Assembly: GCF_000186865.1 (NCBI RefSeq)
Contig: NW_008705566.1
Coordinates: 219,945-283,944 of the forward strand
Reading direction: 5' to 3'
DNA from: Aureococcus anophagefferens
Taxonomy: Eukaryota > Sar > Pelagophyceae > Pelagomonadales > Pelagomonadaceae
Length of the DNA stretch: 64,000 nt
Below are positions 1 to 39,456 of this stretch, piece after piece (positions within the stretch are counted from its first letter, which is position 1; each line of letters opens with the position of its first letter). The translations under genes and the position numbers were made by a program. The notes below the pieces were generated by a model that saw nothing but the letters and a program-made list of their open reading frames with translations, ran no database searches and was not told where the DNA came from.

Positions 1-666
1 CCAGCCGCGCGCGCGCGCGAGCGGGCCCACGTCGAGCGAGTCCTCGAGCTTCAGGACGACGTCGAAGCGGTCCTCGAGCACGCGCGCCGCGACGTCGACG
101 TGCGAGGCGTTGAGCGCGCCGACGGCCACCTCCCGGAAGACCTTGCCGCCGTTGAGCGTGCGCACGAGGAAGTTGTCGAAGTAGCCCAGCGCGTGGGCCG
201 CGTAGCGCTCGCCGACGAAGCCGAGCGCCGCGTCGCGCGGCGCGAGGCCCCGCGCCGCCGCCTTCTCGAGGAGCGCGCCGACCTCCGCGGCGTCGACGTC
301 GTTGTTCCGGAGCGTGGACCGCGCCGTGTCCAGCGGCCGCCGCAGCGTCAGCCCGTACGCGAACTCGGCGCAGCCGACGTCGCTCCGCTCGAGCGGCCGC
401 TCGACGAACGTGAACGACGCCTCGGGCTGCTCCGCCAGGAGCTCGGCCTTCTCGCGGCAGGTCCGGTCCTTGTCGAAGGCGAGGTTCCAGTTGTGCGTCG
501 CCGGCTCCAGCGGCTTCTCGCCGTTCGCCTCGGCGTGGAGCCGCAGGGACGTGCCGCCGGCGTTGTGCACGTGCAGCCAGAGCATGGGCTTGCGCCGGCA
601 GCCGCCGCGCTCCGCCGCCGCGGCGGCGCACGCGACGGCGACGCAGCAGCGAAGCGCGCGGTTCAT
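1..666 (-). CDS. Sulfotransferase-like secreted/Golgi protein, 3' truncated by window edge
   Basis: The frame is open from an ATG at 666 to the window start, giving 222 residues with no stop, so the C-terminus lies outside. The N-terminus (MNRALRCCVAVACAAAAA) resembles a signal peptide or anchor. Next comes LWLHVHNAGGTSL, which matches the 5'-phosphosulfate loop of Sulfotransfer_2-type enzymes (hydrophobic strand, H/K, then a GGTS turn). A later RRPLDTARSTL fits the 3'-phosphate segment (R-x-P...R...S). The family transfers sulfate from PAPS to glycans in the Golgi, and that role is inferred from these two motifs only. A second gene with similar features lies at 13673-14581. Confidence 0.6.
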   Translation of the reverse strand, partial: MNRALRCCVAVACAAAAAERGGCRRKPMLWLHVHNAGGTSLRLHAEANGEKPLEPATHNWNLAFDKDRTCREKAELLAEQPEASFTFVERPLERSDVGCAEFAYGLTLRRPLDTARSTLRNNDVDAAEVGALLEKAAARGLAPRDAALGFVGERYAAHALGYFDNFLVRTLNGGKVFREVAVGALNASHVDVAARVLEDRFDVVLKLEDSLDVGPLARARGW

Positions 667-1478
667 ACGGGCCTAGCGGGTCGAAGGCCCACCAATTTTT
701 TTTTGCGGACCCATGCGCTCCGCTGCTCCTGCGTGAGTGTTGGCACTGTTGGACTAGTTATTGAAGGGGGTGCGCACCCGAAGATCCCGCCCGGAGACTC
801 ACCCTGCCGTTCAAGGACTAACAGATACTACCAGAATTGGTCTCATGCGAGAGTCGACCACGGACAAAAGATCCGACGGCATCCCCCAGTGGGTGGGTGG
901 GCCCGGAGGTCGGGTTTTAAAAACCCGACGTGTACTTAAAGGGTACTTGTAACGCGCGCGCGCGCGCGCGCGGAGGCCGCGCGCGTCCCGCGTCCCGCGC
1001 CGCGCCAGGAGCCGGGAGGAGGTGCCATGGGCCACGGCGGTGTCCTCGTCGAGTCGGGCCGCGCCCGGCTTTCGTCGGCTGACCCGCGGCTGCACGGTGG
1101 CGGCTCCTGCAGCGGCACCGGCGACTCCCGGTCGAACTGCGGCGCCGCGCGGTCCCGCGCGCGCGGTGTGGCAATTCAGCGATAACCAGCGGCGCGCGAC
1201 GCGGCAACTTGAAGGCAACCAACGAAAAAGGAGCTCGCTGATTGGCCGGGAGGTGGGTGGGTGGGCGCCGGTCGCCGGCACCAAAAATCCGGCATGCCGT
1301 CGGGTATTGTTTTTTAGGTAGCCTCCTGTCTCATGTTAAAATCACTGGTCTCAATCTCCGTATGCGTCTCCGCCTCCACACCGACAATGTTGAAACTGTT
1401 GCCAGGCTGTTGGCGTGCTTGACAATGCGTCGCCTTGCTGGCGTGCGCTGCGCGATCGATTTGAGATAGGCGGATAGC
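667..1478. other. Gene-free interval with palindrome and G-rich repeats
   Basis: No convincing coding frame is present; the open frames are Arg/Ala-rich shadows. It is AT-richer than the flanking genes at 690-950 and 1300-1470. It contains a 21-base palindrome at 909-929, an alternating CG run at about 953-971, two similar GGTGGGTGGG stretches (about 890 and 1253) and a CCAAT-type motif (CTGATTGG) near 1239, upstream of the next gene. Confidence 0.5.
909..929. repeat. Perfect 10+1+10 inverted repeat
   Basis: GTCGGGTTTT and AAAACCCGAC flank a single A, so the arms pair perfectly over 10 bases. It lies between two divergently oriented genes. It could be a cruciform, a protein-binding dyad or a remnant end of a mobile element; the sequence does not decide. 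Confidence 0.55.
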
Positions 1479-5557: not shown

Positions 5558-6580
5558 ATGGCCGCGCTGGCGCGGTTCAGCGAGGAGGACGCCTGCTGGT
5601 GGCTCGACGAGTCGGCGACTTTGACCATCCTGCGGAAGGACGACGACAGCCACCCGCTCTACCGCATCGTCATCTCGTCCGCGGCCGACGCCGAGGAGCG
5701 GCGGTTCCTGCAGAGCGACTTCGTCAAGTTCAGCAAGCTGCGCGACGCCCAGAAGACCGTGGAGCGGGTGCTGGCGCCGCGCGGCGCCTTCCCGCCGTCC
5801 TACGCGAAGTCGCGCTTCGGCGCGTCGCTGTCGCGGAAGGAGCTGGAGAAGCGCACGGGCCTGCTCGAGGACTACCTCGCGGGCGCCCTGCGGTCGACGG
5901 CGTCGAGCGACGACCAGCCCTCGGAGGCCGACCGGTCGGCGCTCCTCGAGGCCCTGCGGCTCGCGGAGGTCGACGAGGTCGACGAGGCCGCCGTCGCGGA
6001 CGCGGCCCGGCGCCGCGCGGAGTCGTTCTCCAGCGACGGCTCCGGGGACCGGCGCATGGTCAAGTCCTTCTCGACGGCGGCGCGGGGGTCCGCGCGGCTC
6101 GCCGAGGAGGACACGCGGCCCAAGTCGGAGACGGCCGCGGCGGCGGCGGCGAAGAAGCGCGGGCTCGGGTCCGCGCGGTTCTCGCTGTCGGGCTTCGCGA
6201 AGCGCGAGAGCGAGGTCGGTGGCGCCGACGAGCACTGCCTCGCGCACCTCGCGTCCGGGCCCGTCGGCGTCGCGTTCGCGCCGGACAAGTGGCCGCCGAC
6301 GGTCTCGGCCGTCACCGACGCGCGGCTCAACGTCCGCCCGGGCGACGTCGTCACCAAGGCGACGGTGCGCGACGAGGGCAAGGTCGTCGAGACGGACTGC
6401 GCCCTCCTCACGGGCGACCAGCTCGAGCTCATCCTCGCCGCGGACGACCACGCGAAGGGCCGCGTGCTCCACGTCCAAAAGGCCCGCGCCGCCGAGGCCC
6501 GCGGCTCGACCAAGGCCAAGGGGCTCTGGGGATCCGCCCTGCGGAAGACGGCCCTCGTAGCCGCCCTGAAGAGGAAGTAA
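5558..6580 (+). CDS. PX-domain (phosphoinositide-binding) protein
   Basis: 340 residues. Residues about 20-115 match a Phox-homology domain: LYRIVISSAADAEERRFLQ (strand pair), SDFVKFSKL (the RR-y-SDF-L position, with FLQ in place of the usual Arg pair), FPPSYAKSRFG (the P-x-x-P loop) and RTGLLEDYLAGAL (the final helix). PX domains bind PI3P on endosomes. Substitutions at the basic positions make lipid binding uncertain. The middle is Ser/Ala-rich. The last 120 residues form a separate conserved-looking module (VGVAFAPDKWPPTVSAVTDA...VRPGDVVTKATV) with PDZ-like flavour, which I do not assign. The stop is 4 bases from that of the convergent ankyrin gene. Confidence 0.7.
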   Translation: MAALARFSEEDACWWLDESATLTILRKDDDSHPLYRIVISSAADAEERRFLQSDFVKFSKLRDAQKTVERVLAPRGAFPPSYAKSRFGASLSRKELEKRTGLLEDYLAGALRSTASSDDQPSEADRSALLEALRLAEVDEVDEAAVADAARRRAESFSSDGSGDRRMVKSFSTAARGSARLAEEDTRPKSETAAAAAAKKRGLGSARFSLSGFAKRESEVGGADEHCLAHLASGPVGVAFAPDKWPPTVSAVTDARLNVRPGDVVTKATVRDEGKVVETDCALLTGDQLELILAADDHAKGRVLHVQKARAAEARGSTKAKGLWGSALRKTALVAALKRK

Positions 6581-28167: not shown

Positions 28168-29330
28168 CTAGCGGCGCGGCGGCAGCGGCGGCGCGTCGCG
28201 GCGCGGCGGCAGCGGCGGCGGCGCGGCGGCTCCCGCCGTCGGCGCGGCTTCCGGCGGCGGCGGGCGGACGGTCGGCACGGCGGGCGGCGGCGGCCGGATG
28301 GTCGGCACGGCCGGCGGCGGCGGGCGGACCGTCGGCGCGGTCGGCACGGCGGGCGGCGGCGGGCGGACCGTCGGCACGGCCGGCGGCGGCGGGCGCGCGC
28401 CCTCGGGCGGCGGCGTCGCCGCGAAGACCGCGGGCGGCGTGGCCGTCGGGTCATCGTCGAAGACATGGGGCGGCGTGGCCGGGGGGTCCCCGGGCGGCGG
28501 GCGCCGGAACGCATCGAAGGCCTTGATGGGCGTGAGGTCGTTGGCCGCGAAGACGTCCGTCGTCGGCGCGCGGTCCCGCGAAACCGCCGCGGCGTCCCCG
28601 ACGCCGAGCAGGACGAAGGCGGCGACAGCCGCCGCCGGGCGGCACCGCTCGTGGAGCTCGGCGAAGGGCCTCGCTGCGTCTAGGCGCCACGGCACGCGGC
28701 GCCCCGCCGCCACANNNNNNNNNNNNNNNNNNNNNNNNNNNNNNNNNNNNNNNNNNNNNNNNNNNNNNNNNNNNNNNNNNNNNNNNNNNNNNNNNNNNNN
28801 NNNNNNNNNNNNNNNNNNNNNNNNNNNNNNNNNNNNNNNNNNNNNNNNNNNNNNNNNNNNNNNNNNNNNNNNNNNNNNNNNNNNNNNNNNNNNNNNNNNN
28901 NNNNNNNNNNNNNNNNNNNNNNNNNNNNNNNNNNNNNNNNNNNNNNNNNNNNNNNNNNNNNNNNNNNNNNNNNNNNNNNNNNNNNNNNNNNNNNNNNNNN
29001 NNNNNNNNNNNNNNNNNNNNNNNNNNNNNNNNNNNNNNNNNNNNNNNNNNNNNNNNNNNNNNNNAGCGGCGCGGCGCACACCGCGACGAGCCGCGCGCGC
29101 CGCCGCGCGCCGACGTCGCCGCGGCCCGTCGCGCCGAGGCGCACGACGTCGCGGCAGAACGCGAAGCGCCGCGCCTCCAGCGCGCTCTCGCCCTCGCCGC
29201 TGAGCACGGCGAAGGTCGACTGCGCGCAGAGCAGCGCGACGGACGCGGCGCTGGCGTCGGCGGGGAGCGGCTCCGGCGCGGCGACGGGTTCGCGGCCGTC
29301 TTCGAGCAAGAGCAATGCGACGAGGTCCAT
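28168..29330 (-). CDS. Pro-rich protein with a 350-base N gap
   Basis: The start is at 29330 (MDLVALLLLEDGREPV). The N-terminal 85 residues are helical, including SVALLCAQSTFAVLSGEGE. The N run (28715-29064) hides the middle. After the gap the frame encodes PFAELHERCRPAAAVAAFVL, then ANDLTPIKAFDAFRRPPPG and about seven P-P-P-P-A-V-P-T-x-R repeats, ending PPLPPRRDAPPLPPRR. Poly-Pro tails of this kind bind SH3, WW or profilin. No domain is assigned. The frame on the two sides agrees only if the gap length is right. Confidence 0.55.
28715..29064. other. Assembly gap (350 N)
   Basis: A run of N within the Pro-rich gene; the sequence is unknown. Confidence 0.99.
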
Positions 29331-30040: not shown

Positions 30041-33000
30041 TCAGCTTAGCGACTCCCGCATGCCCACGACCCGGTCGTGCATGGCCCGGCGCTTCTCCTC
30101 GGAGACGTCGAGGATGGAGATGGGCCCGAGGAGGAGGAGCCAGCGCGGGAAGAAGTAGTCGTGGGGGATGCCGTAGGCCGAGATGACCATGGGCAGCCAG
30201 AGGCGCTCGATGGAGAGGATGATCATGCTCTTCTCGTGGAGCATCTCCGCGACGGCGGACGCGCGGACGCGCTCGTAGGCGCTGTTCATGATGGCGATGA
30301 GCAGGTTGAGCGCGAGGACGCCGAAGATGAGCATGAAGAGCTGGAGGACCGTCGTGATGGGGAGCTGGCGGTCCATGCGCCAGTCGTAGAAGCCCTGGTC
30401 CCCGCTCAGGTAGTCCTTCTCGTACTCGCCGTAGAAGCCCGCGTTGAAGAGGAAGACCATGAGCCACTCCGTCGGCGTCTCCTGCATGCCGATGGCGAAC
30501 GCGAGCCAGAAGCCGACGAGCATGAGCGCGACGACGGCGGAGAAGAAGCGCACCTCCCAGACGATCTTCACGATCATGCGCACGAGGGGCCCCCAGTTCT
30601 CGAAGCCCCGCGCGAAGGAGATGATGCGCCAGTTGAAGAAGAGGACGTTGACGCAGGCGAAGAAGGCCAGCAGCCAGCCGCCGACCTCCATGGCGAGGAG
30701 GCCGTCGACGAGGAGCTGGAGCGACAGGCACGCGAGGTCGAGCGCCTTCCAGACCGCGTGGCCCGCGAAGTAGTTCTGCGACCCCTCGAGGAGCATCTGC
30801 CGCACCTCGAGCCCCAGGAGGAAGCAGGTCAGCAGGACCACGGGCAGGTAGAGCGCGAGGGCGAAGACCTCGCCGAGGCCGTGGGCGGGCCGGCCGCGGT
30901 CGCCCGGGTCCCAGCGCGTCGGCAGCCGCATCGCCGGCGTCACGGCGACGTAGAGCGCGATGACCAAAGCGAAGTGGAAGACGCAGAGGACGCACTGGGC
31001 GATGAAGATGGACCGCGCGTAGTGGTCCCACTTGAACTGGATGATCGCGCGGACCATCTGGCTCTCGAAGACCCGGTAGTCGTTCATCGACGCCGCGCAC
31101 CGCGTCGCGAGCGCGAGCACGGAGTCCTGGCTCACGGCGTCGCCCCCGAAGGTGCCCAGCACGCGCTCGAAGGGCACGATCATCGCCGCGACCTCCGTCT
31201 TCTTGAGGTGCGCGCGGACGCCGGCGCCGCCCAGGGTCGCGAAGTTGGCGAACGTCGGCGCCGCGCCGGCCCGGCCGCCGTCGAAGGACCGGCGGCTCAG
31301 CATGTGGCGCAACGAGTTGCGCGCGTGGAAGGCGCCGCTGGGCCGGTGCGCCGCGCCGTCGTCGGACTCGCGGTGCTCGAAGTAGCGGAACCGCGCGCCC
31401 GCCTTGACCAGGAAGTCGCTCCAGAAGTCCGCGGGCGACCGGTGGTCGCTGCCCGCGGTCACGGACGCGCCCGTCGGCGGCATGAGCGCGAAGTTGTGGC
31501 CCGGGGGCACGACGTCCGTGTCGTGGATGAGGAAGGACCGCGAGATGAAGTCGAGGTAGAGGTCCGGGTACTGGTCCGCGATGGCCGCGTGCGCGTTGCT
31601 GAACGCGGCCGCGGCGAGCGGCGACCCGTCCAGCGACGTCATCATGACGTCCAGCAGCTGGCTCAACGCCCCCTTGCGCTCGTTCGCGAGCGCGACGGTG
31701 ATCGCGTTCATGCCGTTGCAGTCGCCGAGGAGGCCGATGGGGCAGTCCGCGTGGAGCAGCTGGTCCACGGCGCGCCGCGACTTCTTCCGCACCGCGTACT
31801 GCAGGATCGACTCGCCGCTCACGGGGTTCACCTGGTTCACGAGCGTGCGGTGGAGCCGGAGCGCCGCGCGCAGCGCGCGCGGGTGGTCGAGCGTCGCGCG
31901 CGCGACCTCGTGGTTCAGCGCGTCGTACCACGCCGGCACCTAGGAAACAAAAATATTCAACACGACTTCAATGTGCGCGTCTTCGAAGGTTTCGACACGA
32001 GCTTTTTGGCTCTACTTCGAGAACTCGCCGAGATACATCGATCCGTCCAAAAATCAGCCGAACGACGTCGATTTTACCGAGCTAGAGAGATTCGAAGTTT
32101 CGCCGGACATTCCGCTGGTCGTTTCCCGCGCGGGCCGGCACGCGGCTCCCGACGCCCATGGTGCTGAAGATCGTGCCGTTGCAGAACGCGAAGCCCCGCA
32201 GGCTCAGCGCGACGTCGTTCGTCGTCGCGTGGCGCGTCACGACGAGCTTCTCGCGCGGCCGCGACGCGTCCGACAGGTCCCAGACGTCGACCGTGTTCTG
32301 CTCGGCCGCGATGGCGAGGTCCCGCGCCGCGGGCGCGAAGCAGAGGTTCTGCACGAGGCCCTCCATGGCGATCGTCGCCGTCCGCGCCTCGCTCGCGACG
32401 TCGAAGACGGCGACGAGGCAGTCGACGCGGCCGACGGCGAGGACGGCGTCGTCGTGGCCTGCGCGGCGCGAGGGGGTGCGAACGCCCCAACGTCAAGGGC
32501 TTTCGGCCCGTGTCCCCTCGTTTCGGCTCATTTTGGGACGAGCGACCATCGCTCGGAGCGCTCTCGACGCGCGGATGCTTTTTCCGGAACGGTCGCGCGC
32601 GTTCCGCGCGCGTCGAAGCTCGCTCGAATCGCCCGGTTCCCGCGCCGGCCGCGGCTCAGCGCGACCGCGTACACGAAGGCCTCGTGGACCGTCTCGAAGA
32701 GCGCGGCGATGTGGTCGCCGTCGACGGCGTAGACCGCCGCGCGCTTGTCCCGGCCGCCGACGGCGACGAGCGCGCCGTCGCTCGACAGCGCGACCGCGTA
32801 GACGCGGTCGCCGCGCTCGATCGCGCCGAACTCGCGGAGGTCCGCCGCGTCGACGAGGTAGGCGTAGGCGTCCCAGTGGCCGATGGCGAGCGTGTCGCCG
32901 TCGCCGGAGAAGTGGACGGCCCAGGTGAAGGGCGCGCCCTTGCCGAGCCACGACGTCTTGAGCCAGAGCACGGCGCCGTCGGCCGCGGCGTAGAGCACGA

Positions 33001-36000
33001 CGGCGTTCGCGTAGTCGCCGGCCGCGACGCGGGTCCCGTCCGGAGTCACAGAGACGGTCCAGACCTTGCCCCGGTGCTTCGCGCTCCAGGAAGGCTGCGA
33101 CAGGGACCCGCGCACGAGGTCGTAGCAGCGGCACAGCGCGTCGTCGCCGCCGACGGCGAGGACGGCGCCGGCGCGGTCGACGGCCACGGCGCGCGCGGTC
33201 GCGCCGCACTCGCCGACGGCACAGGGCGCGCCGCGGCCCACGTGGTGCAGGCGCAGCGTCGCGTCGAAGCCCCCGAAGGCCAGCACCTCGTCGTCGCCGC
33301 AGAGCGCGACCGCGCGGACGCGGTCGTCCGCGCGCGCCTCGTAGCGGAGCGCGGCCGTCGTCACGTCGCAGAGCTTGACCTCCTTGGACGCGCCGCCGAA
33401 GAGCACGGACTTGCCGCTGCGCGACAGGGCCACGCTGTAGAGCGCGTCGCCCGCGTCGAGCCGGAAGACGACGCAGCGGCTGTCGAAGTCGTAGACGACG
33501 ACGACCTCGCGCGCGCACGCCGCGACGCGCCGCGTCGAGCCCGACAGGGACACGCAGTTGACCGTGTGGTCGAAGCGCATGGACCAGGCCCGGCTCGCGT
33601 GGCGGCTCGTCCGCGGCGACGCGCCCGCGGCGCACTCGACGGCGTCGCGCGCGCCGCCGTCCGCCGGCGGCCGCGGCCGGCCCGCGACGTCGTAGCGCCA
33701 GACCTCGGCGCGGCCGGACTCGCCCCCGAAGGCGACGTACTTGTGCGTCTCCACGGTGCGCGACGCGCAGCGGAATCTCACCCAGACGGGCATGCGGTCG
33801 CGCTCGCCGAGCGACCCCTTGGCGTGCGGGTCCGCGTCGGCCTCCGCGCGCGACGTCCGGGTCCGCTTCCAGCGCCGCGACGCGAAGCGCTTCAGCCGCG
33901 GCATGGGCGGCGTCGTGCCGAGGGGCTCCGGCGCCTCCGAGCGGCCCCGCGACCCTCGCGTCTCCCGCTCGTCGCCGCTCCGCGCGCGCGCGGCGCCGAA
34001 GCCGCGCGGCGCCATGACCTCGTCGCCCGCGGCGCGGCGCATGTCGACGTAGCGCCGCTCCGGGTTCGTCAGGATGTCGCGCCGGTCCACGTCGCCCACG
34101 ACGGCGCCGCCGTCGAGCTCGACCGCGTAGGTCCGGCCGGACGCGGCGCGCGCGTGCCTCAGCCCCCGGAGGTGGCGCGCGCAGGACCGCGCGGCGCGGA
34201 GGAAGCGCGCGCACTTGCTCAGGGCCAGGCCCCAGGACACGTAGGGCGCGTGGCGCACGAAGACGGCGGCGAGGCCCAGGGCGACGACGGCGCCGTCGGC
34301 GACGCACGCGGGGTCCCGCGCGAACTTCCAGAGCGAGTGGTGCACCTCGACGTGGCAGATGCCGCGGATCACGAGCTCGAGGAGGTAGAAGAAGGTCACC
34401 CAGAGGTCCGCCGCGGCGTACTGCGCCGCGCTCAGCGCGCCCCGGCCCCGGAGCGCCGCGCCCGCGACGCAGCCGAGCGCGAGCGCCGCGTCGAGGCCCA
34501 GCCTGGGCAGCACAAGGGTGATTCAACGTCGCTTCAACGTGAGTGTTCCGCGCGCGCGCGTAACAAAAAAACACATCCATGCTTCGAGACCGTTCCGAGA
34601 GATGATCGCTCGTCCAAACATCAGCCGAAACGAGTGGAAAACGGCCGAGATCGGAGCCTTTGAAGTTGGGAATTTCGCTCTCTTGTCCTGCCCTGGGCCC
34701 AGCAGGCGCTTCTTGTCGAGGCTCTCGTGGACGGAGACGACGCGCGTCCGCGAGCTCTCGCCCTCGACGACGCGCAGCGCCGCGTCCTCGTGGACGTAGG
34801 TCGCCCCGGCGTCCGTCACGCGGAGCCGCGAGTCCTCGCCGTCGCCGGACGCGCCGACCTCGAGCACGCGGTGCGTCTTCGCGCGCCGCAGCGTCGACTG
34901 CTGGCGCGCGAGGGCCGAGTCCCACTCGGGCCACTCGGCCGCGTCCTCGGCGTCGCGGCTCGGCACGGCGAAGCGCACCGGCGGCCCGCCGCGCGCGCGC
35001 GAGAGCTCGTGGTTCTCCGACGCGCCGAGCGCGACGCCCCAGGCCGTGCCCGACGCCTCGAAGCGGTAGAGCTCCGCGCGCTGCGCGACGGCGTAGATGA
35101 CGACGGCGTCGCCCGCGGCGACGGCGAGCTCGCCCGCGCGCTCGAAGAGCGCGAGCGCGTTGACGTCGCGGCCCGCCTGCCACGCGGCGTCGCCGGGCGC
35201 CGGTTCGCCCCCGCCGGCGCCGAGGTCCGCGACGTAGTCGAGGTGGCCCGGCGCGAAGCAGCCGACGGCGAGCCCCCGCGCGCCGAGCGCGACCGCGCCG
35301 ACCTGCTTCGGGAAGCGGCGCTCGTAGAGCCGCGCGTCGCGGCCTGTGTGGAAATCAAATCTTCAACCCGACTTCAATGTGAGCTTAATCGAACGATGTG
35401 GACCAGACGCTTCCGCTGTGCTTCGAGAACTCGACGAGAGCAATCGATCCGTCCAAAAATCAGCCGAATCGACTTCGATTTGATTGAGATAGAGAGTTCT
35501 GAAGTTTGGTGGGGACCCCCCAAACCAGTGGTTGATTTCCACACAGGTCGCGGCGCGCGTCCCAGACGACGCAGTAGAAGTCCATGCCGCCGCAGGCCAC
35601 GCGGCTCCCGTCGGGCGACAGGGCCACGGTCGTCACCGTCGACGCGCGCGCGAGCTCGAGGCGGCCCGGCGCGGCGCCCGCGGCGCCGCCGCGCGGCGCG
35701 TCGCGCGGGTCGAGGAACCGCGCGAGGTCGACGAGGCGGATGTGGTCCAGCGAGTTGTCCAGCAGGTCGTAGAGCGCCTCGATCTCGCCGTCGAGGAGCC
35801 GCACGCGCAGCAGCTCGCCGAAGATGCGCGCGATCTCCCCGAACTGCACGAGGCCGTCGTTGTTCTCGTCGAAGGCCGTCATGCGCGCGGTGTCGAGGGC
35901 CGACGACGCCACGACGTTGCGCAGCAGGCAGGCGATGTCGACCTGCTCGTAGGACGTCCGCGCGGCGCGGGACCCGTCGTCGCCCGCCGCGAGCAGCGAG

Positions 36001-36620
36001 CCCGCCGCGACCGGCGGCGCGGCGACGAGCGCGACGGGCGCGGCCGCGACGTCCTCGCGGTCCGCGCGCCGCGCGAGCGCGTTCGCGCCCCGGGGGCCGC
36101 GGCGCGCGCCGCCGCCGCCGCCGGCGGCGGCCGGCGCCGGCGCCGCCGGCGCCGCGTCCGCGGCCGCGACCGCGGAGAGCAGCGCGAGGACGTCGCGGTC
36201 GCGCCGCGCGATGGCCCCGCGGAGCGCGCGCGCGTCGTCGGCCGACAGGCCGTCGACGCCGAGCTGCCGCCGCAGCGCCGACGACAGCGCGGCGCAGACC
36301 ACGGCCGCGAGCGGCTCGAAGCGGTCCGCGCGCGACGCCCGCGGCGCCGCGGCGCCGAGCGCCGCGCGGACCGCCTCGAACGGCCGCGGCTCCGCGCCGA
36401 GGGCGCGCGCGGGGGGCACGGGCGACGCGTGCGGCGGGAGCACGGGCAGGGCGACGGGCGTCAGCGCCGTCGGGGTCCCGCCATCGCTCGCCGGCGACGC
36501 GAGGTCGGCGTCATCGCGCGGATCCGAGCCGCTTCGAGGCCGCGTTTCCACGGGCGGCGGCGGCAGCTGCGGCGTCGTGCCGACCGTATCTAGTTGCGGC
36601 GGCTTCGCCGCCGCGTCCAT
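30041..36620 (-). CDS. Giant EF-hand/WD40/ankyrin/TRP-like channel protein, five exons split by four introners
   Basis: Exons: 36620-35555, 35343-34704, 34502-32656, 32458-32142, 31939-30041. All junctions keep frame and give 1,922 residues. Order: disordered leader; EF-hand loop DENNDGLVQFGE at 251-262; WD40 units in exons 1-2 (VTTVALSPDGSRVACGGMDF); a membrane region near 570-680 (YAAADLWVTFFYLLELVIRG...VADGAVVALGLAAVF) resembling part of a voltage-sensor fold; more WD40 repeats (VYAVALSSDGALVAVGGRDK); ankyrin-like repeats at the start of exon 5 (GESILQYAVRKKSRRAVDQL); then a six-helix channel whose pore region is WLMVFLFNAGFYGEYEKD with a long S6 (FGVLALNLLIAIMNSAYERV). The last part resembles TRPV/polycystin-type channels. 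A Ca-regulated, beta-propeller-gated cation channel is my inference. The full architecture depends on all four introns being spliced. Confidence 0.8.
31940..32133 (-). mobile_element. Introner in channel gene, intron 4
   Basis: 194 bp in sense orientation with the gene. The flanking duplication is identical: GTGCCGGC (minus strand) at 32141-32134 and 31939-31932. Ends are weakly inverted (GGGAAACG near the donor side, TGTTTCCTAG at the acceptor). The body shares the TCGGCTGATTTTTGGACG core. Here the duplication starts with GT, so the intron is GT-AG. It joins the WD40 part to the ankyrin/channel part, phase 0. Confidence 0.87.
32459..32647 (+). mobile_element. Introner in channel gene, intron 3 (antisense)
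   Basis: 189 bp. The core lies on the plus strand (TTTCGGCTCATTTTGGGACG), opposite to the gene, so an antisense insertion is also spliced. The duplication is imperfect: GCCGCGGC upstream and GCCACGAC downstream (6 of 8). GC-AG splicing gives VALSHDDAVLAVG, a good WD40 strand. Confidence 0.75.
34503..34695 (-). mobile_element. Introner, CAGGGCAG family, in channel gene intron 2
   Basis: 193 bp in sense orientation. Ends are CAGGGCAGGACAAG and CTTGTGCTGCCCAG, inverted with two mismatches. The duplication GCTGGGCC is perfect (34703-34696 and 34502-34495). It is a GC-AG intron; splicing joins KKRL to LGLDAALAL. Confidence 0.88.
35344..35546 (-). mobile_element. Introner, CTGTGTGG family, in channel gene intron 1
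   Basis: 203 bp, the same length as the SDR copy and about 75-80% alike by eye. TIRs CTGTGTGGAAATCAA and TTGATTTCCACACAG are perfect. The duplication GCCGCGAC is perfect (35554-35547 and 35343-35336). GC-AG splicing restores DARRDARLYERRF within a WD40 repeat. Confidence 0.92.
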
Positions 36621-36906
36621 CAGCCGTCGTGGGGCGGCAGCCCGGCTATGGACTCACCATCAATACCATGCTCTTCACAAGCTTCTAGCAAAAAAGTTTT
36701 GCCCTCGAGGTTGAAGCCTCCTTGAATAGGGAGGGATCGTAAAAAAAAGTCCCGAGGAGCCACTTCAAGAGCCCGTCCGGGACGCCGTCAGCGTCGTGCG
36801 CCGCCCCCCGTCGGCCCGGGGCCCCGACTCGAGCCGCCTAGCAGCCGTCGGCCTCTCGCGGCCGGCCTCGGACCTGTCTCCGAGTCGAGCGAGTGTCTAA
36901 TTTTGT

Positions 36907-39210
36907 TTACCTCACGCTGTCCTCCTCGGACGTCGACGCCTCGTCGGCGTCGGCGTCGCGCGCGAAGGACCGCGGCGACGTGCCGCCGTTCGTCGGCGGC
37001 GGCTCGGGCGGCTCGAGGGCCTCGCGGAGCTCGGCGAGGGAGACGCCGAGGAGGTCCGCGAGGGTGCCGTAGCGGTAGACGCGCGTCGGCGGCGGCGCCG
37101 GCGCGCCGACGTGGTCGAGGAGCCGCGGCGGCCGCCACGCGAGGCGCGGCGGCGCCGCCGCGTCGGCGGCGGCGTCCGGCGGCGCGTCGGCGGCGGGCGC
37201 GGGCGGCGGTGGCGCGTCGGCCGGCGGCGCGCCGTCGTCGTCGTCGTCCGGGTCGAGGGGCGGCGGGAGGCGGTAGGCGAAGCGGTCGTCGCGGGGCCCG
37301 TGGACCGCGGCGACGACGTCCGCGTCCGCCGCGCCCTCGGCGGCGGCGGCGGCGGCGGCGGCGTCGGTGGCGGCGCGCGCGGCGCAGGCGGTCGCCGGGG
37401 CCCTCGAAGAGCTGCTGGAAGTGCTGGGTCTCGACGAGGGCCCGCGTGAACGCGCGCGCGGCCGCGGCGCAGCGCGCGACGGCGATGACGCCGCGCGTCT
37501 TCGGCTCGAGGCCGCGGCGCGCGGGCGCCGCCGCCGCCGCGCGGTCGTGGCCCGGGTCCAGCAGGTCGAGCACCGCCGCCGCGCAGGCGAGCTGGAGCCG
37601 CGCCTCCGCGGCCTGGAGGCCGACGTGCGGCGCGCGCGCGGCGCCCTCGCCGGCCGCGTCGCCGTCGCCGTCGCCGTGCGCCGCGAGGCAGGCCTGCTCC
37701 CGGAGCGCGCGCGCCGCGGCGACGACGGCGTCCCGCGGCGCCGGGGGCAGCGCCGGCGGGTCCTCGCCGCCGGGCGCGTCGACGGCGCGCGCGTCGAGGT
37801 CGAAGAGGACGACGCCGGGGCCGATGGTCACGTCGGGGCCCGATTCCGCGCCGGGCAGCCGCAGGTCCTCGGCGGAGACCGGTTCCTCGCCGCGCGCCGC
37901 GCGCCGCTCGCGGTCCCGCGCGCCCGCGGCCGCCTCGGCCCGCCGCCTCTCGGCGTAGAAGCCGCGGTCGATCCACTTCGACTCGACGCCGAGCAGGAAG
38001 GCCTGGGGCGCGTCGAGCAGCTCCAGGAGGGGCTTCGGCAGCACGGGCACGTAGACGCCGGCCCACTCCAGCGGCGCCGCCAGCGCGAGGAGCGCCTCCG
38101 CGACGGGCGCGAGGACCGTCGTCGACTCCGCGTGGAGGCACAGCGGCCGCTCGAGGAGCACGCAGGCCAGCGCCGTCGCCAGGCCCTCGGGGCCCAGGAG
38201 GAGCGCCGCCAGCCACAGGCTCCCGCCGCCGCCGACGGGCCGCGGCAGCGCGCCGCCGCCCGCGAGCGTCGCGGGCCGCGCCGCGCGCGCCGACGGCGCG
38301 CCGACGCGCTCGCGCGCGTCCACGAGGTGGCCGAGCGGGCCCGCGGCCAGCAGGCTCAGGGCGCCGCGCACGGGCCGCGGCGCCTCGTCGGCGAGCTGCG
38401 CGAGCCGCGCGACGAGCGACGGCCCGTCGTCGCCGCCGCCGGCCCACCGCGCCGCGAGCCACGGCTCGGCCTGCTCGAGCCTGGGCAGCAAAATGGTGAT
38501 TCAACGTCGCTTCAACGTGAGTGTTCCGCGCGCGCGCGTTCCGGAAAAAGCATCCACGCTTCGAGATCGTTCCCAGAGATGATCGCTCGTCCAAAAATCA
38601 GCCGAAACGAGTGGAAACCGGCCGAGATCGGAGCCTTTGAAGTTGGGAATTTCGCTCTCTTTTGCTGCCCTGGCTCCAGCCACGCGACGAGCGCCGGCAC
38701 GACGCCCAGGCGCGTGAGCAGGCAGAGCGCGACGGGCGCCCAGAGCCTCCGGGACCGCGCGCCGCCCCGCTGGTGCGCCTCCGGCGCCCGCGGCGCCCAG
38801 CGGCCGCCGTCCGCGGCCCAGCGGCCGCACGCGCGCCACGCGACGAGCACGACGCCGCGCACCGGCGGGCCCTCGGCGTGGAGCGCGAAGGCGTGGCAGC
38901 GGCTCGGCGGCCGCTTCTTGCGCCACTTGAGCACGACCTCGCCCTCGGGGAAGCAGAACCACTCGACGCGGTTCGGGGGCTCGGGCCGCGGGCCGGGCCT
39001 CCCGCCGCGCCGCGGTGTCGCGGGCAGGCGCTCGAGCACGACGGCCTCGCGCGCGATGATCGGCCGACGCAGCCAGGGCCCGACGTCGGCCACCGACTCC
39101 TCGACGTCGAAGGGCGCCGCGCCGACGACGACGGCGTCGTCGATGAGCCCGACCTGCACGGGCACCGCGCGCTCCGACGCCGCCGCCAGGCGCTCCTGCG
39201 CCGTCGGCAT
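36907..39210 (-). CDS. DENN-domain protein, split by an introner, with a frame break near 37400
   Basis: Exon 1 is 39210-38681, exon 2 starts at 38480; a GC-AG intron of 200 bases is removed. The tripartite DENN module is visible: uDENN (EWFCFPEGEVVLK, CHAFALHAEGPPVRGV), cDENN (ALCLLTRLGVVPAL; LLLGPEGLATALACVLLERP; PLEWAGVYVPVLPKPLLELL; QAFLLGVESKWID) and a dDENN end (FTRALVETQHFQQLFEG). DENN proteins are GDP-GTP exchange factors for Rab GTPases. After LFEG (about 37397-37405, a GGGCCCC run) the coding signal moves by one base and continues in an acidic Pro-rich tail (DPDDDDDGAPP, RVYRYGTLADLLGVSLAEL) to a stop at 36909-36907. Without the shift the frame becomes Arg-rich and ends at 36788. 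About 700 residues if corrected. Confidence 0.8.
38481..38672 (-). mobile_element. Introner, CAGGGCAG family, in DENN gene
   Basis: 192 bp in sense orientation. TIRs CAGGGCAGCAAAA and TTTTGCTGCCCAG have one mismatch. Duplication GCTGGAGC / GCTCGAGC (7 of 8). It is nearly identical over most of its length to the copy at 34503-34695, implying recent spread. GC-AG splicing joins LVAW to LEQAEPWLAARW. Confidence 0.9.
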
Positions 39211-39456
39211 GAGACGGCGCGCGTGCTGCCGCGACCGCTGGCAACGCGCGACTGGCTCCTAGCGCGCTAGCGAGCCGCTGGCAGCGCTCGTTTTGTGACT
39301 CGCCGGCGCCGCCATGCCCACGGCATACATTTCACAGGAGCAGCATCTACTTCATCTTGGCGCGAAACCTTCGGTTTGCCCTCGAGATCTCGAGCTGAAC
39401 CTGGAAGGGCTGCCATCAGACGCACCCATTGGCCCGTTCGTTCGAATCTGCCATCT

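Follow-up and report, generated by a model that had tools for sequence, protein, structure and literature searches.

Do the open reading frames that follow one another on the minus strand between positions 36620 and 30041 of an Aureococcus anophagefferens sequence belong to a single gene, and if so, what does this gene encode? The stretch in question, hereafter the window, is 64,000 nucleotides long (contig NW_008705566.1, positions 219,945 to 283,944). A preliminary description, made from the sequence alone, had joined four of these frames across four introners into one gene for a channel of 1,922 residues, in which an EF-hand, WD40 repeats, a membrane module, further WD40 repeats, an ankyrin part and a TRP-type pore follow one another. 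Our analysis supports one minus-strand gene with predicted phase-true splicing. We put a probability of roughly 60% on the reading that its predicted product is a channel subunit, in which a TRPV-like pore is joined by a separate voltage-sensor domain (VSD) set among WD40 repeats that adds voltage control, and by an EF-hand that adds Ca2+ feedback. What the sequence itself shows is the order of these domains within one frame, a sensor of the voltage-gated type and a pore module of the TRPV type.

We rebuilt the gene model from the target-site duplications (TSDs) that flank the introners and from their AG acceptors, and the rebuilt model reproduced exactly the coordinates, the length of 1,922 residues and the intron phases (1, 2, 1, 0) of the preliminary description (Table 1). 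An 8-bp TSD surrounds each introner, perfect at three of them and with 6/8 matching positions at introner 3. The first two bases of the upstream TSD copy (GC, GC, GC and GT, in order) form the donor of each intron, and the acceptor is the element's own AG. The donor of intron 1 is the least certain; with an alternative GT within the introner the protein would be four residues longer (1,926 residues). Such a mechanism, a variant that adds 12 bases, is described for an Aureococcus isolate in the available text of PMC9860276. All four elements are introners, with many similar copies in the genome (searched as a 49-Mb assembly of 86 contigs) and with flanking TSDs. Introners 1 and 2 each have at least 40 genome matches including their own copy, the others being 94-98% and 94-96% identical, respectively, and other copies of introner 4 are 80-86% identical among the matches listed. 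The GC contents of introners 1 to 4 are 49.8, 55.7, 71.1 and 51.5%. In the family of introner 2, GC or GT starts the downstream (3′) TSD copy in all 30 copies read, the window's own among them, and the upstream (5′) copy in 28. In the family of introner 1, 20 of the 30 copies read have GC or GT at the upstream (5′) copy on the aligned strand; another nine have it on the opposite strand, and in one the register is off by a base, these last two counts being made by eye. TSDs, terminal inverted repeats and a borrowed splice site are common to these copies and to the introners of Aureococcus and other algae in the available text of PMC9860276; we found no essential difference between them, and the present copies are typical of the kind, whose mechanism is already known from that source.

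Because the donor of each intron comes from the duplicated target site, splicing would restore the sequence and the frame that preceded the insertion, and the keeping of phase is nearly automatic. The preliminary description had taken the kept phases as support for joining the frames; the phases are exact, but they weigh little in GC-rich DNA and with such donors, and the argument for one gene is therefore carried by homology and by empty sites. A second copy of the gene in the same genome (C29, locus L077) is 83-91% identical over residues 265-1914 and 55% identical over residues 25-270, and it reads residues 265-1187 in one unbroken frame. Empty-site probes of 80 nt aligned with this copy without gaps at junctions 1, 2 (77/80 nt) and 4, while at junction 3 it carries an introner that is 94% identical to introner 3 over its full length, the next best score of introner 3 being 81%. 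As introner 3 is common to both copies it predates their split, and by the simplest reading introners 1, 2 and 4 were gained in the window copy, although they could instead have been lost from C29. The image of introners stitching four frames together therefore has to be reversed, since C29 lacks introners 1, 2 and 4, which so interrupt what was one frame. In L077 we also noted a frame change near residue 1460 (about 1857-1906) and, near residue 268 (about 5671-5815), some 140 nt of additional sequence that the window copy lacks; sequencing error or decay may lie behind either of them.

A more distant paralog (C7, locus L078; 32-43% identity) gave single-frame alignments that cross all four junctions, and once two 88-nt introners at other sites are removed it can be read for 1,725 codons without a stop. 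These two introners, from 3625 and near 5475 of L078, apparently belong to another family, start with GC and GT and have the TSDs GCACCTGC and GTCTTGGC/GTCTGGGC. Another distant TRP-like locus was seen on C2 (L079, 1103-1594; 27.9% identity over 165 columns). We aligned the model protein with 12 relatives, leaving out P0007, and found 6, 6, 10 and 9 of the 12 to be free of gaps at junctions 1, 2, 3 and 4, respectively; the remainder were the NCBI models P0004 and P0005, records without the stretch concerned and some with small insertions. The WD40 blade that introner 3 splits is completed across it. Removal of the introners from the mRNA would agree with both the homologous proteins and the empty sites. 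The preliminary description had placed every junction within a plausible WD40 or linker segment, but junction 2 (residue 569) falls at the first VSD helix.

Open frames say little at this locus, where the DNA is about 70% GC. We dropped them as proof of one gene, as a second frame of the joined sequence is nearly as open as the model frame, with one stop in 1,922 codons. Choosing the donors by frame alone was dropped as well: 207 of 1,280 enumerated donor combinations (5 x 4 x 8 x 8, listed before the TSD donor of intron 1 was included) keep some frame open for more than 1,800 codons, so that the frame cannot pick the donors, while TSDs and homology can. GC content at third codon positions (GC3) is more telling, being 0.975-1.00 in the model frame of all five exons (0.975 in exon 1), compared with 0.43-0.83 for the two remaining frames on that strand; for unrelated exons, a chance of 1/3 at each of the four junctions would put them all into one GC3 register in about one case of 81.

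To the kinship of the membrane module in exon 3 there are several clues. Residues 598-684 match Ion_trans with an E of 1.5e-4 (21.5 bits, below the cut-off of 25), and five of seven VSD members match it at E up to 0.1 (best 9.5e-7). When a profile of the seven VSD sequences was compared with PDB, the best 60 of 87 rows were all voltage-gated channels, VSP or Hv1 (best E 1.5e-10), and among its kin are Cav, KCNQ, Nav, VSP and Hv1. These matches show kinship to the VSD superfamily over S1-S4. A voltage sensor carries Arg or Lys at every third position of S4, with a Glu in S2 and an Asp in S3 as counter-charges. The S2 Glu, the S3 Asp and the Lys and Arg of S4 are invariant across the seven aligned sequences, as they are conserved in the S1-S4 of Cav, Nav and KCNQ and in the free-standing VSP and Hv1, so the charge pattern expected of a sensor is present; the strongest S4 is that of the C7 paralog (RLVRLVRLVRVVRAGR). 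A model of exon 3 placed helices at 2-19, 25-54, 64-83 and 90-119 of this part, with a predicted local distance difference test (pLDDT) of about 43-66. The S4 motif RxWRxxR marks proton channels, and an Hv1-like proton channel was rejected on its absence from the seven sequences. Unlike the sensors of voltage-gated channels, the window VSD has no pore of its own after it and is flanked by WD40 blades in a protein of TRP type, while voltage sensors are otherwise known attached to their own pore, attached to a phosphatase, or alone.

Around the VSD, blades were counted with a profile built from blades of the second WD40 array and hence biased against N-terminal ones. In the N-terminal part of the window copy it found one clear blade and a weak one, where three or four can be made out by eye, and after the VSD it found eight clear and two weak blades. 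Of the two propellers that the preliminary description had placed on either side of the VSD, what stands is blades on both sides; the tandem blades of the second array form a propeller, but the N-terminal ones look too few for one of their own. The structure comparison of the exon 3 model (VIA-align) listed propellers only and was uninformative for the VSD part. Seemingly too few for a ring, the N-terminal blades may close with the blades beyond the sensor, and a single propeller may be split by the VSD. As an S1-S4 bundle begins and ends on the cytosolic side, a propeller in the cytosol can accommodate one as a looped-out insert. The EF-hand loop of the window copy is canonical by the Ca2+-loop pattern, with an EF-hand_1 match below the Pfam cut-off (E 0.03); in P0015, the protein of the C7 paralog, EF-hand_7 is found with an E of 4.5e-7 (30.6 bits, just above the cut-off of 30).

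In exon 5, TRPV5/6 were the best PDB sequence matches, and TRPV-type structures occupied the best 50 Foldseek rows. Sequence and model together argue for a six-helix module that has a pore helix between S5 and S6 and is kin to TRPV. A long post-S6 helix is predicted at 526-589 of the low-confidence exon 5 model, where NLLIAIMNSAYERV aligned with NLFIAMMGDTHARV of TRPV5. Upstream of the module, a weak Ank_2 match (E 4.9e-5, 24.3 bits against a cut-off of 27.3) coincides with nine helices at exon 5 residues 10-134 in the same model; the N-terminal ankyrin domain of TRPV channels has six repeats. An ankyrin-like region followed by a six-helix channel module is likewise the arrangement of TRPV5, TRPV6 and other TRPV channels, but the ankyrin match is weak here and the filter is not confidently alignable, and we know of no WD40, EF-hand or extra voltage sensor in TRPV channels. 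The Chlamydomonas TRP channels (TRP1; TRP15/ADF1) are also algal TRP pores, and our family profile matches PDB 6pw4, presumably Chlamydomonas TRP1, with an E of 1.3e-15. In the available text of the TRP15 paper (PMC5068960), WD40 belongs to a separate protein, FAP16, and no VSD fusion is described. Profile and structure matches thus back the order of domains given in the preliminary description, and the structure prediction that it had proposed yielded four helices in the VSD part, nine ankyrin-like helices and a TRPV-like module, though at low pLDDT.

To get an idea of how widespread this architecture is, we searched protein records with three queries. Exon 5 alone gave three matches, all partial, among 7,993 candidates scored. 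Residues 1185-1922 gave 27 among 7,988, including 12 close relatives (P0004-P0015), the other matches being distant TRP proteins and many that match the WD40 part only. The channel region of P0009 gave 14 among 7,983, namely the same 12 and two distant ones. The close relatives with a named source are P0004, P0005, P0007, P0014 and P0015 of Aureococcus, P0004 (A. anophagefferens) being 99% identical over residues 1185-1922, and P0009 of Chrysophaeum taylorii, which has the same domain order in one protein, as the preliminary description had suggested looking for in other stramenopiles. The database names of the relatives are hypothetical protein, calcium ion transmembrane transporter, and Rab or Rho guanyl-nucleotide exchange factor. 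A whole or partial VSD is present in 11 of the 12 and absent from P0010. The database models P0011 and P0014 are without S1-S2; the C7 DNA, which shares 98% identity with P0011, codes for the VSD in full when its introner is skipped. A tree that omits P0004, P0005 and P0007 placed the VSD-bearing proteins in one supported group of ten (99/99), which includes P0010; its five distant rows are long-branched and their mutual order is unsure. Five distant proteins (P0016, P0017, P0019, P0031 and P0032) have a TRP/PKD-like channel module preceded by WD40 or by an unassigned N-terminal part and are 23-30% identical in the aligned parts; in none of them did a hydropathy scan find, towards the N-terminus, paired hydrophobic segments like those of a VSD (there are two isolated segments in P0019 and one at the start of P0031). 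In the simplest history, an older WD40-ankyrin-TRP protein would have received the sensor in a single insertion that preceded the divergence of the pelagophyte copies. A TRPV-type pore and a separate voltage sensor among WD40 repeats in one protein appears to be undescribed: among the open-access papers that our searches listed, which exclude most subscription papers and all bioRxiv preprints, we recognised none on a WD40-VSD-TRP protein.

In the subunit that we favor, the TRPV-like modules of four subunits would form a Ca2+-permeable pore, the extra sensor, held by the WD40 scaffold, would give voltage control to a pore with few charges in its own S1-S4, and the EF-hand would supply Ca2+ feedback. 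We regard as tentative, and on the whole rather doubtful, the more specific proposal that the VSD sits in a loop of the WD40 propeller and that the propeller acts as a rigid lever on the TRPV-like pore, a natural transplant of voltage control combined with EF-hand feedback. Several observations weigh against our reading. Among the six relatives that cross junction 2 without a gap, five carry 17 additional residues a short way upstream of it, and the NCBI models P0004 and P0005 retain pieces of introners as coding sequence or lack the stretch. The pLDDT of the VSD part is only that given above, and the exon 5 model has a mean pLDDT of 59.8 with no residue at or above 90. A crude hydropathy scan of the window protein found only two VSD segments, 568-586 (1.64) and 633-651, with S1 weak and S2 not picked, and it placed two false segments elsewhere; strict every-third spacing holds for only four charges of the window S4. 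No TRPV5/6 filter signature was recognisable in the TRPV alignment, in which the filter region, conserved and acidic in TRPV channels, is not confidently aligned. Finally, P0010 is nested within the VSD group (98/99), so that a loss of the VSD or a dropped exon has to be assumed for it, and presence of the VSD has to change state twice on the tree; the protein may be able to do without this domain, or an exon may have been dropped from the gene model of P0010.

Could the same single gene encode a protein whose extra S1-S4 does not gate the pore, and either anchors the WD40 scaffold in the membrane or works independently, in the manner of free-standing voltage sensors, for instance by conducting protons or as a sensor whose signal passes through the blades? 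The VSD profile also matches free-standing sensors (VSP 4g80, E 0.0021; Hv1 5oqk, E 0.016), the hydropathy scan shows no clear hydrophobic pair between the VSD and the ankyrin part, the first helix is weak in the window copy, and P0010, inside the group, does without a VSD. Yet the key residues of S2, S3 and S4 are invariant in 7/7 aligned sequences, which makes a mere anchor unlikely, and the proton-channel motif is not seen in them; a non-gating sensor seems to us unlikely, while still deserving to be taken seriously. A different doubt is raised by P0002 (an ENA record of 491 residues on a 2,741-nt contig), which fuses VSD residues to the pore module at KWDHYARS, skips the second WD40 array and the ankyrin part, and may be an isoform, a deletion or an assembly fault; it also weighs against the full-length reading. 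It would fit one transcription unit that mostly yields shorter isoforms, such as a VSD and pore without the second array. We consider this very improbable, as P0002 stands for a single cluster of two sequences of uncertain kind, and VSD and array are kept together in at least six longer relatives. Least probable of all, and hardly to be expected, are two or more genes (EF-hand/WD40, VSD/WD40 and ankyrin-TRP) with introners in the spaces between them and a joined frame that is only an effect of high GC. Several frames are indeed open through high GC, and partial proteins exist in the database, e.g., P0001, whose 632 residues have the same extent as exon 5. Against separate genes, the same order is found within one protein in Chrysophaeum (P0009) and in relatives from other contigs, the C29 and C7 copies read across the junctions except for junction 3 of C29, the blade interrupted by introner 3 is completed beyond it, and the uninterrupted frame of C29 contradicts them. 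The joining of four frames into one gene is therefore upheld by the homologs that read across the junctions, the empty sites of C29, the GC3 register and the TSDs.

Just upstream of the channel gene, a DENN/uDENN gene lies on the minus strand at 36788-39258 (PF02141, E 9.3e-19; PF03456, E 6.2e-5). DENN (PF02141) is fused to the channel in the database models P0004, P0005 and P0007. We judged this fusion to be a gene-model artefact, since P0008, P0009, P0012 and P0013 begin without DENN, and DENN and uDENN lie here in separate upstream frames. Between those two frames there is an introner at 38478-38680, about 92% identical to introner 2. A run of N, which may be an assembly gap, extends from about 28,700 to 29,070, about 1 kb past the 3′ side of the channel gene.

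Table 1. Predicted features of the channel gene, in window positions.
Feature	Position	Strand	Residues	Length (nt)	TSD (upstream/downstream)	Phase	Remarks
Whole gene	36620 -> 30041	minus	1,922				5 exons and 4 introners
Exon 1	35555..36620	minus	1-355 and one base				ATG 36618-36620; low-complexity N-terminus, EF-hand region, WD40 blade 1
EF-hand loop	35835..35870	minus	251-262				DENNDGLVQFGE
Introner 1	35344..35554	minus		211	GCCGCGAC/GCCGCGAC	1
Exon 2	34704..35343	minus					rest of N-terminal WD40 stretch, then linker to VSD
Introner 2	34503..34703	minus		201	GCTGGGCC/GCTGGGCC	2
Exon 3	32656..34502	minus					VSD and bulk of second WD40 array
VSD, S1-S4	34148..34502	minus	569-687				S2 E611; S3 D638; S4 K665/R668/R671/R674
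Second WD40 array	32656..33751	minus	from about 820				runs on into exon 4
Introner 3	32459..32655	minus		197	GCCGCGGC/GCCACGAC (6/8)	1	also in C29 copy
Exon 4	32142..32458	minus					final WD40 blades
Introner 4	31940..32141	minus		202	GTGCCGGC/GTGCCGGC	0
Exon 5	30041..31939 (coding to 30044)	minus					TRPV-like channel module, preceded by ankyrin-like helices; TGA stop codon at 30041-30043
Ankyrin-like helices	31538..31912	minus	about 1300-1424
TRPV-like S1-S6, pore helix and post-S6 helix	30173..31060	minus	about 1584-1879

Introner presence and absence can be compared cleanly at this locus, where a second copy of the gene within the genome lacks three of the four. It also holds a predicted channel that automatic annotation has obscured, through misleading record names and, in three records, fusion to the neighboring DENN gene. 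If the sensor gates the TRPV-like channel, coupling of sensor and pore through a soluble scaffold would be possible, and brown-tide algae and their kin would have a channel that responds to both voltage and Ca2+. Such a protein could reveal how a TRP pore acquires voltage control, and would be of interest to the study of channel evolution.

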